A DNA stretch of 49,080 nucleotides from an uncultured Gammaproteobacteria bacterium (lineage in GTDB: Bacteria; Pseudomonadota; Gammaproteobacteria; UBA4575). Location of the stretch: NCBI GenBank assembly GCA_905479295.1, contig CAJQLY010000017.1:76380-125459 (forward strand), read 5' to 3'. Of the stretch, positions 33,511-44,136 are shown piece after piece (within the stretch, counting starts at the first letter, position 1; every line of letters begins with the position of its first letter). The notes below the pieces were generated by a model. That model did not search any database and was not told the DNA's origin. It saw only the letters and a list, made by a program, of their open reading frames with translations. Both the position numbers and the translations under genes were made by a program.

Positions 33511-33521
33511 TAAGCGTTAGT

Positions 33522-33902
33522 TTATTCGAGAATCTTACGTAGTTTTTTGCATTCTGATTTATAGCGAGAACTATGTGGATTCATGCCGGACTTTGTTGGT
33601 TTTGTGATGTTGTCAGACATACGATGATCCAATCGAACGCGTAGGCGATAAAGAGGTCGACCTAATTCAGTTGAGAACTCCTCGTTCAGCTGCTTTAAGA
33701 TCTCATGTTGTTGATAACGCAGCAGAGTTGCACGCTCTGCTCGATTGGTGATGATAGTCAGTTGATTGGTTGTGATATCTGCAACCCAGCAATATGGCGC
33801 TAAATCTGGTGATAAACGGCTACGTATACTAGTGCTAAGTTGACTTAGAAAGGCGGCTTTCTTTAGATAATGCCGATGAATAAGATGGCTGATTGATTGC
33901 AT
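33522..33902 (-). CDS. dciA: DciA-like protein (DUF721), probable replicative helicase loader
   Basis: DciA is the ancestral loader or chaperone of the replicative helicase DnaB in bacteria that lack DnaC. The 126-residue protein shows DUF721 features: an N-terminal helix and hydrophobic core (about 18-60), LTIITNRAERATLLRYQQHEILKQLN (about 49-74), and a KH-like fold followed by a basic tail. Position just after ftsZ and before an M23 peptidase and secA is the usual gammaproteobacterial context. It is convergent with ftsZ. Family assignment rests on size, pattern and context more than a sharp motif. Confidence 0.8.
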   Translation of the reverse strand: MQSISHLIHRHYLKKAAFLSQLSTSIRSRLSPDLAPYCWVADITTNQLTIITNRAERATLLRYQQHEILKQLNEEFSTELGRPLYRLRVRLDHRMSDNITKPTKSGMNPHSSRYKSECKKLRKILE

Positions 33903-33980
33903 AGTGTGACAAAAGTGATAGTGATTTGACGCTTAAGCATTCTATATACGAAAGCGCCCCAAGGCCGTAGAATAACCCAA

Positions 33981-34904
33981 ATGAACGTACTCATCTCCCC
34001 CCGTGGCATTAAGCGACGTTTAGACTTCTCACTGTATAGTCAGCGTCAACGCTGGTTAGCTCGGCTAGGTCTACTGATAGTGGCGGCTAGCTGTGGCCTT
34101 ACTGGCTACTATTTTGGTGGTAGCCTTGGTCAGCAGACACTATTAACGCAATGGAAGAAGGATGTAGCACAACAGCATAGCTTGTTAGAGGGTATGCGAG
34201 GCGAGAGTGAAGCGCAAATAGAGGCATTAACGCAGAAGATCGTGTATTTTCAGGCCTATATTAATCGTTTAGAGGCAATTAGTAATAAATTGATGATCAC
34301 CGCTAAGATCGATGATCTAGAGATTGATTTTAGTTCGGATCCTGGTTTTGGTGGCCCAGCAGCGGCCTTAGAGAGTAGTGATCATGTTGGATTGCTCTCA
34401 GAAATGGAACAAACACTGAGCTTGATCGAGTCTGAATTAGAGAGTCAGCAGAATAAATTATTAACCTTGGATGCAGTTTTAAGCTCACGTCAGCGAAATG
34501 AAGACGCTATGCCAAGCGGTCGTCCAATTAGAAAAGGCTGGGTGTCATCTAATTTTGGTGAACGTACTGACCCTTTTACTGGGCGTAAAGCGCTGCATAA
34601 AGGTATCGATTTTGCCGGTAAATCTGGCGCAGATGTTTTAGCTGTAGCTGATGGGATTGTGACCTTGGCCGCTATACGCCCTGGTTATGGCAAGTTAGTT
34701 GAGATCGATCATGGTAATGGTTATGTAACGCGTTACGGCCATAATAGAGATTTTCACATTAACCCAGGTCAAGTGGTAAAGCGTGGAGATGTGATTGCTG
34801 CAATAGGGAGCACGGGACGCTCAACCGGTCCGCATGTTCATTTCGAAGTGTTAAAAAACGGACATCATGTTAATCCTATGAAGTTCCTTAGTCATTCGAA
34901 ATAA
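33981..34904 (+). CDS. M23 family metallopeptidase (LytM domain), membrane-anchored
   Basis: A 307-residue inner-membrane protein with one anchor (about 26-48), a periplasmic coiled coil (about 55-105 and 135-170) and a C-terminal LytM/M23 domain (about 185-300). Zinc ligands are complete: H206 and D210 in HKGIDFAG, and H287 with H285 in PHVHFEV, so it may be an active peptidoglycan endopeptidase rather than a degenerate EnvC/NlpD-type activator. It lies between dciA and secA, as in Pseudomonas. The 172-base gap to secA holds a small palindrome (TAAGCTAGCTTA, 34917-34928) and no secM-like ORF. Confidence 0.9.
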   Translation: MNVLISPRGIKRRLDFSLYSQRQRWLARLGLLIVAASCGLTGYYFGGSLGQQTLLTQWKKDVAQQHSLLEGMRGESEAQIEALTQKIVYFQAYINRLEAISNKLMITAKIDDLEIDFSSDPGFGGPAAALESSDHVGLLSEMEQTLSLIESELESQQNKLLTLDAVLSSRQRNEDAMPSGRPIRKGWVSSNFGERTDPFTGRKALHKGIDFAGKSGADVLAVADGIVTLAAIRPGYGKLVEIDHGNGYVTRYGHNRDFHINPGQVVKRGDVIAAIGSTGRSTGPHVHFEVLKNGHHVNPMKFLSHSK

Positions 34905-35076
34905 GCGGTCTAATAATAAGCTAGCTTAGGAATAAGACATTCTAAGGTAGCGAAAAATATTTGAACATAATAGATAAGCCTGTATCCGCATGGCAGTCAG
35001 CGGTTTATAAACTATATACGGTGCAAAGTGAAATTGATCTGCGCCTTACATTAACGTCTTAGTCGATCTCTTATAT

Positions 35077-40022: not shown

Positions 40023-40814
40023 TTAGAATGTGCAGCAGGTGAGTTTAAACTTCATATTAAGCTGAACCTGTTTAGGGTTAAGTTTAAGGTCGTGCTGATT
40101 CATGAATCGAATTGAGAAGCGATGCTTACCTGCACTGATCTCAGGAAAACATCCCAGCTCTCTATCGACTGCTACCCGTAGTATTTGAGAGGGTTGCCCC
40201 GAGTCTAAGGTACGCTGATAAAAGCCTTGTTCTGCGATACAGTCTTCATATATTGCACTGGTTCTGATTAGATTTAAGCAGGTGCTAATCGAGCGCTGAA
40301 TTAATTCCAGTGGTGCGACCCATTCTCGTAGTGCTTGTTGTCTGCTATTGATGTCTTGTGCCAGCCAAAAATGATAGGCCGGTAGATCAAATTCACAAGT
40401 GCCACCAGGAATACCAGCACGTTGACTAAGGGCCTTAATAAACTCATTTTCCTTTGTGCTTGATAAGAGCTGACCATTGATTATGCTCATTTCAGAAATC
40501 AGTTGTTCATGGGTATCAACTAAGTCTTGTAGCTTGCTACGATCAATTTTTTCAGTCTTAGAAAAACCATCTAATGTATTTAATTCGCGGCTAAGCTCTT
40601 TTAGTATTTCTTGTTTCAGATCACCACGCGAAATTAGATTTATTAGCTCAATTAAGGCTGATAAAGATAGATGGCTGCCCCAAGATGTAGTCTGATCTAA
40701 GCAATAGTTACAACGTGCAGATAGATGTTCAATACGCATAAATGTACGGATCCGCTCATTGAGAGGTTGCTCAAATACAATAGACTTCTGTGCTGGGTTT
40801 GGCTGATTAGACAT
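40023..40814 (-). CDS. zapD: Cell division protein ZapD
   Basis: ZapD binds the FtsZ C-terminal tail and bundles FtsZ filaments. The 263-residue protein opens with a short extension and then the family start IVFEQPLNERIRTFMRIEHL (about 12-31). The middle is helical (about 50-130), with TCEFDLPAYHFWLAQD (about 137-152), and the C-terminus ends IRFMNQ...FKLTCCTF, close to the E. coli ending FELACC. Its start overlaps the coaE stop by eight bases; coaE-zapD is a common gammaproteobacterial pair. The convergent gap to mutT is only 15 bases. Confidence 0.93.
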   Translation of the reverse strand: MSNQPNPAQKSIVFEQPLNERIRTFMRIEHLSARCNYCLDQTTSWGSHLSLSALIELINLISRGDLKQEILKELSRELNTLDGFSKTEKIDRSKLQDLVDTHEQLISEMSIINGQLLSSTKENEFIKALSQRAGIPGGTCEFDLPAYHFWLAQDINSRQQALREWVAPLELIQRSISTCLNLIRTSAIYEDCIAEQGFYQRTLDSGQPSQILRVAVDRELGCFPEISAGKHRFSIRFMNQHDLKLNPKQVQLNMKFKLTCCTF

Positions 40815-41430
40815 AAGTAGGATTATGGGACGCTTGATGTGTTAAATCCAAGTATTTTTTATGTAGCTGATCTAGTTGGTCAGTCAGACTGGCGTGATTG
40901 CTATTGTTTGTCACAATATCATCAGCACACTCTAATCGATGCTTATCGTCTAGCTGGCGTGCCATGATCTTTTCAATATCTTCTACTTTACAATCATCAC
41001 GCGCTATAACACGCTGGATTCGTAAGTCTTTAGAGCAATCAATTACCAATAAACGCTCTATGAGGTCATTCATACCAGCTTCAATGAGTAATGGTGCTGA
41101 AAGTATGCAGTAAGCAGAATCACTATGATCGATTTGTTTTTTTATCTCACTGCGGACACGTGGATGAATAATTTGCTCAAGCTTTTGGCGTGCAGCCTCA
41201 TCATCAAAAATTAATGTTCGAAGTGCTTTACGGTCTATATTGCCTTCTGCATCAAAGATATGAGCAGGAAAATTCTGCTGTATTTCATAATAGGCATTAC
41301 TACCTTTTTGTAATAGCTCGCGACTGATCACATCGGCATCAATTATTTTTATGCCATAACATGAATGTAAATAATCGCTGACTTCTGTTTTACCAGCGCC
41401 AATACCACCAGTGAGTCCAATCAATAACAT
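40807..41430 (-). CDS. coaE: Dephospho-CoA kinase
   Basis: CoaE phosphorylates dephospho-CoA, the last step of coenzyme A synthesis. The ORF track starts at 41529, inside pilD; ATG at 41430 is chosen because the protein then begins MLLIGLTGGIGAGKTEVSDYL, directly with the P-loop, and has 207 residues, the family length. The DADVISREL motif (about 31-39) and the conserved IIHPRVR block (about 80-86) are present. It starts seven bases after the pilD stop, matching the widespread pilD-coaE-zapD order. Confidence 0.95.
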   Translation of the reverse strand: MLLIGLTGGIGAGKTEVSDYLHSCYGIKIIDADVISRELLQKGSNAYYEIQQNFPAHIFDAEGNIDRKALRTLIFDDEAARQKLEQIIHPRVRSEIKKQIDHSDSAYCILSAPLLIEAGMNDLIERLLVIDCSKDLRIQRVIARDDCKVEDIEKIMARQLDDKHRLECADDIVTNNSNHASLTDQLDQLHKKYLDLTHQASHNPTYV

Positions 41431-41437
41431 TGTGCGG

Positions 41438-42253
41438 TCAGTAGTTAAAAAAGTAGTTGTTAAGCTGATCATGCCATAGTAGACAAATACTAGCCCCAAG
41501 AGCAAGAAATGGTCCAAATGGCATAGCACTATCTTTCTTTAGTTTACCAAATAATAAGAGGGTGATTCCAATCACGCTGGCACTGATGGAAGCGATTAAA
41601 ATGGTTGGCAGTAATACACCCCAGCCTAAGCAAGCGCCAATCATCGCTAGTAATTTAAAATCCCCATAGCCCATACCTTCGCGATTAGTTAGTAATCGAT
41701 GTAACTGAAAGACTAACCATAGACTGGTATAGCCGATCATCGCTCCAAGTACACTTTCTTCTAAGGTAATAAAAGAGCCAAAGAGATTAAATGCAAGACC
41801 AAGCCAAAGTAGACCCAATGTGAGTTCATCTGGTAGCGTCATGGTATTAAAATCAATCACAGATAAGGCGAGTAAACCTAGCAAAAACACTATGGCGAAG
41901 AGGCCATTTGCAGTCAGTCCAAATTGCTTGATTGCGATGCAGCTGAGTAATACGGAGGCCAATTCAACGATAGGGTATTGAATGCCAATGGCTTGCTTAC
42001 AATGACGACATTTACCAGTGAGCAGGATGAAACTTAATAGTGGAATGTTTTCAAACAGAGTCAACTGTGTCTTGCAGCAAGGACAGAACGAACGTGGCTG
42101 CATGAAGTTAAAGGTTTTCTTAGAAGAGAGAGGTAAATCTGATTCCAGCATCAGTGGTAAGCGGTAGATCAACAGATTGAGAAAACTACCTAAAACTAAG
42201 CCAAGCAGTGCTACATATAGGTAGATGGTTGGTGTCACTAAAAATTCGATCAT
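41438..42253 (-). CDS. pilD: Type IV prepilin peptidase / N-methyltransferase
   Basis: PilD cuts the leader of type IV prepilins and pseudopilins and methylates the new N-terminus, in the inner membrane. The 271-residue protein has an N-terminal segment with the zinc-type cysteines C57/C60 and C82/C85, about seven further membrane spans, and two catalytic aspartates: D134 in SVIDFNTMTLPDE and D198 in the GYGDFK motif. All motifs are intact, although the adjacent pilC is broken. It may still process the intact pilin or pseudopilins encoded elsewhere. Confidence 0.95.
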   Translation of the reverse strand: MIEFLVTPTIYLYVALLGLVLGSFLNLLIYRLPLMLESDLPLSSKKTFNFMQPRSFCPCCKTQLTLFENIPLLSFILLTGKCRHCKQAIGIQYPIVELASVLLSCIAIKQFGLTANGLFAIVFLLGLLALSVIDFNTMTLPDELTLGLLWLGLAFNLFGSFITLEESVLGAMIGYTSLWLVFQLHRLLTNREGMGYGDFKLLAMIGACLGWGVLLPTILIASISASVIGITLLLFGKLKKDSAMPFGPFLALGASICLLWHDQLNNYFFNY

Positions 42254-42335: not shown

Positions 42336-43591
42336 TTATATAATTGAGCTCAATTTGAAAATGGGCAAGTACATTGCAAGTACAAGACTTCCGACGATAA
42401 GCCCAAGTAGGCTGATGATCAAGGGTTCTAATAGACTATTCATGCCAGCAACCCATTGCTCAAGATCATTTTCATATATTTCAGATAGATTGCTTAATAA
42501 CTGTAATAAGCTACCTGATTCTTCCCCAGTCCTAATCATGTCTTGCATAAGAGGTGTGAAGTAACGAAATTTTTAAAGCTAGTAGAGAGTGATGCACCGG
42601 CACGGATATCTTTTGTAATAACAATGCAGGCCTCTTGGAATAATAGATTGGGCATGACTGTGGAGAGCTTGTTGAGACAGTCAACCAAGGGTAAGCCAGC
42701 ACCAAATAGTGTTGCTAAAGTGCGGTTAAACCTGGCTAGCAAGCTGCAATGATAAGCCTTGCCAAATATCGGGATATGTAATCGTGCAGTATCTAAGTGG
42801 CGTTGAACAGTTAGATTATTGTGATAGCCATAACGAATGATGATGAGGAAGGTAATGCTAGTGCTAATGATTAAAAGAATATGGTCTTTTATAGTGTGTG
42901 AGAATTGAATTAATAAGCGAGTGTAATGAGGTAGTTCGGCGCCGAAATCAATAAATAGTTTTTCAAACTGTGGCATTACCCAAATAAACAATATTAGAAC
43001 AACAACGAATGAAATCATTAGTATTGTGCAGGGATAGATTAATGCGCGGCGAATATTACGCTGTAATTCTTCAAGCTTACGTCTATGTCGAACAGCCTTT
43101 TCAAGCACCTTATTCAGGCTTCCGGAATGTTCACCGAGTGCAATTAAATTACATAAGATGGGATCAAAACTATTACCTTGTCTACGTAAGCTATCGGCCA
43201 ACGAGGTACCACTTTCTAATTCTTTTTTTATGCCAGTAAGTAAGTGTCTGATGGCAGGTTTCTTCTGTCCATAATTAAGCGTATTAAAGCATTGTAATAT
43301 CGGTATACCTGCCTGAAGCAACATGCTGAGTTGCTGTAAAATATGACTAATATCTGATCTTTTTACTCGTCTCTGGTTGGTGAGTTTGTCGTTTAACAAA
43401 CACCTCTGGATTGTGGTATTTATTAAATGTTATAGGACAGGAGGTGCAGTCTCAGCATGGAGTAATTTGATGCCTTGTTGTCGCAATAAAGTGCGCAAAG
43501 AATCTTCATCTCTTGTGCAACTACGCCCATGTGCAGATTTTCCAAGGTAATCCTTACCATGCCAAATAAAAATGATGCTATTTTTAGGCAC
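42336..43591 (-). pseudogene. pilC: Type IV pilus inner membrane platform protein PilC, disrupted by a stop codon and a frameshift
   Basis: PilC is the membrane platform on which the PilB motor assembles the pilus. Three pieces together cover the family. The N-terminus, not in the ORF track, reads from GTG 43591: KNSIIFIWHGKDYLGKSAHG and DSLRTLLRQQGI, then hits an in-frame TAA at 43430-43432. The same frame resumes (SDISHILQQLSMLLQAGIP) to the core T2SSF domains and runs out at 42536. The last part (RYFTPLMQDMIRTGEESGSL to MYLPIFKLSSII) is in another frame, as if one base were lost from the AAATTTTT run at 42567-42574. The total span, about 418 codons, is the expected full length. Two independent lesions suggest real decay. 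One could be a sequence error. Confidence 0.85.
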
Positions 43592-43623
43592 AGAAATCAG
43601 TGAATATTTTTAGTGGAGTTTAA

Positions 43624-44136
43624 TCAACTATCTGTAGATTCTGTTTCATCTAAGACCTCTTTTGGAGATTCTTCAATAGGCAATTCTTTTTTACAATTAC
43701 TAGGGAAATAGGATTGGATATCTGCATTACTAAGCAGGCAGCTCCAACGCAGCATGCCACCCGTAATCGCAGGTGTGAATGTAGCACTATCGCTTTCACC
43801 AAAATGTTCACCTAATTTTTTATAGACCACCTGAATGGCACCAGAAGCCAGTACATCGATTGAGCTAATGAGGTTGTCGGCATAGGTTTCTTTTGCTGGT
43901 AAGCCATAGTTTTTGTTACCAGCGTCTGGAAAAGTTCCCTGCCGTGCAAAGGTCTCAGCAGCGATGAATTTGACACTATTAATTGCGCTCATGCTGGCCG
44001 CTACTTTGCTACGCACTGTGTAGTCTTGATACATAGGTACAGCCACCGTGGTTAAAACACCAATAATAGCAATAACTATCATCAGCTCGATTAGGGTGAA
44101 GCCTTTGGTTTTATTTCTATCTTTAAATGTCTTCAT
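43624..44136 (-). CDS. pilA: Type IV major pilin-like protein
   Basis: A type IVa pilin precursor of 170 residues. The short basic leader ends in KTKG, and the mature chain begins FTLIELMIVIAIIGVLTTVAVP, with Glu5 and the hydrophobic assembly helix. A disulfide pair near the C-terminus is likely (C in LRWSCLL and C in PSNCKK). After it runs an acidic tail of about 20 residues (ELPIEESPKEVLDETESTDS), longer than I expect for pilins. Ribosome site GGGAG lies about 11 bases upstream; no sigma-54 site was seen. pilB is missing and pilC is broken downstream, so assembly from this locus is doubtful. Confidence 0.9.
   Translation of the reverse strand: MKTFKDRNKTKGFTLIELMIVIAIIGVLTTVAVPMYQDYTVRSKVAASMSAINSVKFIAAETFARQGTFPDAGNKNYGLPAKETYADNLISSIDVLASGAIQVVYKKLGEHFGESDSATFTPAITGGMLRWSCLLSNADIQSYFPSNCKKELPIEESPKEVLDETESTDS

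Follow-up and report, generated by a model that had tools for sequence, protein, structure and literature searches.

The window (the whole 49-kb stretch of DNA that was analysed) carries the type IVa pilus platform gene, pilC, on the minus strand from 43591 to 42336, and translation of the window shows this gene disrupted at two sites. Is pilC a genuine pseudogene or an error of the sequence, and in what kind of pilus system did it break? We suggest that it is probably a recently inactivated platform gene, in a genus previously stripped of pilB and pilMNOPQ. The window genome (G000) is a draft metagenome bin of a marine-type gammaproteobacterium (77% completeness, 5% contamination), and it was compared with two congeners, G001 (UBA4575, DGKH01000068) and G002 (MAG JAQWYM, JAQWYM010000030). 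The features of the locus are as follows.

40023..40814, minus strand: zapD (ZapD 6.1e-70), conserved flank and control gene
40807..41430, minus strand: coaE, conserved flank and control gene
41438..42253, minus strand: pilD, prepilin peptidase, intact, 271 aa (A24_N_bact, Peptidase_A24)
42336..42569, minus strand: PilC C-terminal piece in the shifted frame (T2SSF 2.2e-14, model positions 59-125 of 125)
42536..43399, minus strand: PilC core ORF, TTG start, 287 aa, the version of an ordinary caller, with the last ~ten residues out of frame
42567..42574, minus strand: frameshift site, an A5T3 run one base short of the aligned stretch in the congeners
43430..43432, minus strand: in-frame stop TAA, in the window genome only; a sense codon in G001 and G002
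43433..43591, minus strand: PilC N-terminal piece, 53 codons from GTG 43591, aligning with the PilC N-termini of G001 and G002
43592..43623, minus strand: pilA-pilC junction, with pilB missing from its family-typical site
43624..44136, minus strand: pilA, major type IV pilin, intact, 170 aa (Pilin 2e-10, N_methyl 9e-10)

The first-pass annotation had read a PilC N-terminus in the frame from GTG 43591, ending at TAA 43430-43432, and translation returned exactly this start and this stop. Past TAA 43432-43430 the same frame resumes and leads into the PilC core, which had also been claimed, together with a one-base shift near 42567-42574; both are borne out by the translation, Pfam and the congener alignment. 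The core ORF matches Pfam T2SSF at 2.2e-37 and is 64-65% identical to the intact PilC of G002. The 53-codon N-terminal piece is too short and gave no Pfam/NCBIfam match by itself. The run at 42574-42567 reads AAAAATTT on the gene strand, and the core frame stops about ten codons beyond it, with the second T2SSF domain divided over two frames. The window pilC does not hold two T2SSF domains in one open frame and its N-terminus is severed by the stop; the PilC frame of G002 is open. Ordinary ORF calling, with its TTG 43399 start, indeed loses both ends of pilC, as had been predicted. The orthology to PilC follows from the pilA, pilD, coaE and zapD neighbours and from an identity to PilC that is higher than that to GspF. 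A plasmid search with the pilC region gave no match.

A comparison with close relatives had been proposed as a check, and in the alignment of the three genomes the stop and the one-base deletion are found in G000 only, both congeners being open there. G002 has an intact 418-aa pilC gene; that of G001 holds a 64-base N gap, which is away from both lesion sites and leaves the middle of the gene unread. The linker was also reported to be longer than usual, and so it is by comparison with the rest of the family (PilC of 406-408 aa). As a sign of damage the claim did not stand, since G001 and G002 carry the same linker; the longer linker is a trait of the genus and no third lesion.

Sequencing, assembly or strain-mixture error would leave pilC intact in the cell, with one or both lesions as consensus artefacts. 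At one of the lesions a single base has changed within an A/T run, one-base homopolymer changes are classical sequencing or assembly errors, and the G000 bin carries contamination at the level given above. The stop codon, by contrast, differs at two bases from the codon present in both relatives, which is atypical for an indel error. Every other large ORF of the window is intact, leaving pilC as the sole broken gene; given one random error in the 1.26-kb pilC, a second error in the window would share that gene with a chance of only ~3%. The uncovered stretches longer than 150 bases are limited to the RNase P gene region, a short gap before ftsI (the expected place of ftsL) and the two pilC flanks. 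We consider the error explanation unlikely, and pilC is most likely a real, recent pseudogene in G000, as read from the draft assembly.

The age of the damage was approached by fitting a codon model to G000, G001 and G002; dN/dS values of the pilus-bearing trios were saturated at synonymous sites and were left unused. The pilC omega is 0.165 within the genus, and on the G000 branch it is 0.11 (free-ratio) or 0.18 (two-ratio), not 1, so the lesions would be recent. The strong purifying selection on pilC up to the tip also counts for the error explanation. Setting the entire G000 branch to neutral lowers lnL from -2744.4 to -2747.0, a cost of 2.7 units, which makes this a weak test, and a short neutral period at the end of the branch fits nearly as well as none. 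These values point to a pilC that was functional until recently, with the lesion age poorly bounded by the weak neutral-branch test. The earlier description of a decaying gene, drawn from the two lesions, is supported for G000, with both lesions absent from the congeners and the other large ORFs intact; a long decay does not agree with a branch under purifying selection.

The split gene could also still work, by restarting at TTG 43399 and by slippage at the A/T run restoring the C-terminus. The core ORF is long and AGAGG, a purine-rich motif, stands just before TTG 43399, but only three bases separate the two. Five A and three T make a short run for slippage, no -1 slippery heptamer in register was seen by eye, the congeners get by without recoding and the N-terminal piece would be lost all the same. 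We regard such rescue as highly improbable.

The larger event lies outside the pilC coordinates. The gene order in G017, a genome of the same family, is nadE, pilA, pilB, pilC, pilD, coaE, zapD, and the pilB-pilC-pilD order was detected in G012, G015 and G011 as well. G000, G001 and G002 all have pilC immediately after pilA, across a short, alignable junction, and no PilB above cut-off was detected in these three genus members, only GspE and a PilT-like ATPase. The short junction is common to the three species, so pilB would have been lost before their split, with selection acting afterwards. Further, mrcA is directly followed by aroK on contiguous sequence in G000 and G002, at the site where pilMNOPQ is present in G004 and G009; this read-through covers two of the three genus genomes, the aroB of G001 not having been found. 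Family searches in the three genus members detected no PilO, no PilN and no PilQ above cut-off, and for PilM a single weak match, a 351-aa frame. This PilM_2-matching frame was not accepted as PilM, being weak and present also in genomes without pili, and is presumably an actin-like protein such as MreB. The 446-aa secretin of all three genus members was rejected as a PilQ replacement; its gene, placed after that of a probable chaperone, belongs to an unrelated operon. Across the genus the same genes recur together, for a small secreted protein, the probable chaperone, this secretin and a sensor kinase, and G017 also has the first genes of this operon.

Chance absence of any one locus from all three drafts is unlikely because their completeness is 77, 91 and 82% (G000, G001 and G002). 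Synteny and searches together show clean deletions in the genus, of pilB from the site where pilA now meets pilC and of pilMNOPQ from the site where mrcA now meets aroK. A functional type IVa pilus requires PilB, and in the three genus members its pilA-pilC site is empty; it also requires PilMNOP and PilQ, and the mrcA-aroK junction is without the operon. This wider setting, the genus-wide loss of pilB and pilMNOPQ, was absent from the first-pass annotation.

Still present in the genus are pilC and the major and minor pilins (pilA and five minor pilin genes), prepilin peptidase (pilD) and retraction ATPase (pilT) that a pilus requires. PilT is intact and above the NCBIfam cut-off (TIGR01420). 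In G002 an intact cluster next to ispH encodes FimU-, PilV-, PilW-, PilX- and PilE-like minor pilins, with no pilY1 seen in the interval from pilX to pilE; of this cluster, G000 has the FimU-to-PilX part, on a short contig. The pilV ORF of G002 is shorter and raised the suspicion of a break, but alignment showed an in-frame internal deletion instead.

Omega within the genus is 0.091 for pilT, 0.197 (about 0.2) for pilA, 0.117 for pilD and 0.18-0.26 for the minor pilins, every value far under one. Between the genus and the pilus-bearing genera, PilT identity is 45-49%, vs 76-88% among the pilus-bearing genera, and PilC identity is 34-36%, vs 67-81%. The controls zapD and coaE showed no comparable acceleration; that of nadE was slight and that of pilD modest. 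This pattern fits a constraint on PilC and PilT that changed on the genus stem with the loss of pilB and pilMNOPQ and was later renewed.

The Legionella PilD is encoded with pilBC and also serves the type II secretion system (T2SS) (PMC6617341); pilD was probably kept in the genus since PilD also processes T2SS pseudopilins. A complete gspC-N gene set was detected on contig C51 of G000, and gspD-E-F matches were found in G001 and G002 also. The gspE, gspF and gspG genes on C51 are 99.9-100% identical to those of G001, vs 86-90% for the genes of contigs C17 and C2, and C51 may be cross-binned from the population of G001, which makes a T2SS of G000's own putative. By eye only, a secretin contig of G000 (C31) is similarly close to G001.

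Pilus loss was also detected elsewhere in the family. In G009, a single-contig genome, pilC is split, pilM has stops and pilQ lies in two ORFs, in an independent decay of the pilus. Genus g6 gave no PilC, PilB or PilO match, and one weak ATPase match only. In the single-contig genome G004, pilMNOPQ is present along with T2SS genes and ATPases of the PilT type, but searches there gave no PilB above cut-off, no match to a family PilD and nothing closer to PilC than the GspF level.

A separate observation concerns the window between ftsZ and secA, where lpxC normally sits in gammaproteobacteria. This slot (33511-35076) holds only DciA/DUF721 and an M23 peptidase, without lpxC, and is the same in G002. 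No LpxC match was found in the three genus members, and LpxC was found in 15 of the 16 other family genomes; the first committed step of lipid A synthesis is possibly lost or replaced in the genus. Upstream of the window on contig C17 of G000 (L155:10736-13597), we named kdsD, kdsC, lptA and lptB by eye, so some LPS genes are kept despite the missing lpxC; no lptC was seen there between kdsC and lptA. A motif scan, a crude one that covered only part of the G000 and G002 genomes, gave no lpxB, lpxK, kdsA or hexapeptide matches.

In the history that we propose, the genus ancestor first deleted the extension ATPase gene pilB and the alignment/secretin operon pilMNOPQ. The pilD gene would have stayed for T2SS pseudopilin processing, and pilA, the minor pilin genes, pilC and pilT are still selected in the sister species. 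In G000, the core was then cut off by the stop from the N-terminus (53 codons) and by the frameshift from the C-terminal half of the second T2SSF domain; we infer from the sequence that this species makes no full PilC platform, and the loss of pilC would be the next step of dismantling. By itself the pilC break is an ordinary pilus loss, and its setting is an unusual genus-level pilus reduction.

The remaining pilus genes are under selection in the sister species, therefore the residual set did something before pilC broke. All described type IV filaments keep a pilin, a peptidase, an extension ATPase and a platform (PMC10191384). As the extension ATPase is universal in known filaments, either another ATPase must supply the motor or the set erodes slowly; the residual set is thus either a slowly eroding relic or one repurposed around PilT or GspE. 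Repurposing would mean that PilA, FimU/PilV/PilW/PilX/PilE, PilC and PilD made up a pared-down type IV filament or membrane pseudopilus, run by PilT or by the T2SS GspE, which only G000 has lost. The far greater divergence of PilC and PilT than of the controls, yet with low omega within the genus, and the selection acting after the loss of pilB argue for it. On the other side, such a filament is a prediction from genes, the selection on the branches that follow the split may be that of a slowly declining system, and retraction rather than extension is the known role of the PilT family; a divergent motor hidden in the unassembled sequence of all three drafts is unlikely. No papers on PilB-independent pili were found in the limited literature searched. 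We offer repurposing tentatively, as possible but doubtful; it is compatible with the recent inactivation of pilC after genus-level deletion and concerns only the role of the residual set beforehand.

Somewhat more doubtful still is the full proposal, a stripped filament without PilB, PilMNOP and PilQ, in which a strongly diverged PilT or GspE would drive PilC, PilA and the minor pilins, and of which G000 would just have lost the platform. If it is true, G000 is a natural platform knockout beside two intact sister species. Returning to the recent inactivation of pilC in a genus already stripped, the family shows the order of events, from full pili to the deletion of pilB and pilMNOPQ with platform, pilins and PilT under selection, beside a decaying locus in another lineage and complete loss in a third genus. 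It also offers a test of whether a platform, pilins and a PilT-family motor can act without an extension ATPase.

Compared with known systems, the window pilC resembles the PilC of pilBCD operons (T2SSF, PF00482) in its two T2SSF domains and its place upstream of pilD-coaE-zapD, and the PilC of G002 is ~35% identical to that of pilus-bearing family members. The window gene differs by the stop and the frameshift, by the missing pilB partner and by a linker longer than in other family members. The full type IVa systems of G011, G015 and G017 share pilA (in G017), pilC, pilD, pilT and the gene order with the window genus, which differs from them in lacking pilB and pilMNOPQ and in its strongly diverged PilC and PilT. 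GspF of the T2SS belongs to the T2SSF family like PilC, and the best NCBIfam match of the core is GspF, below its cut-off; however, a separate intact GspF is present in the gspC-N cluster, with which the pilC product shares only 29% identity. The core-only Com pilus of monoderms is like the genus set in having a platform, pilins and a peptidase, without MNOP and without a secretin (PMC10191384). It differs in its dedicated extension ATPase ComGA, the absence of PilT and the monoderm host, whereas the window genus is diderm and has a PilT-family ATPase as its only PilT/PilB-type motor outside the T2SS.
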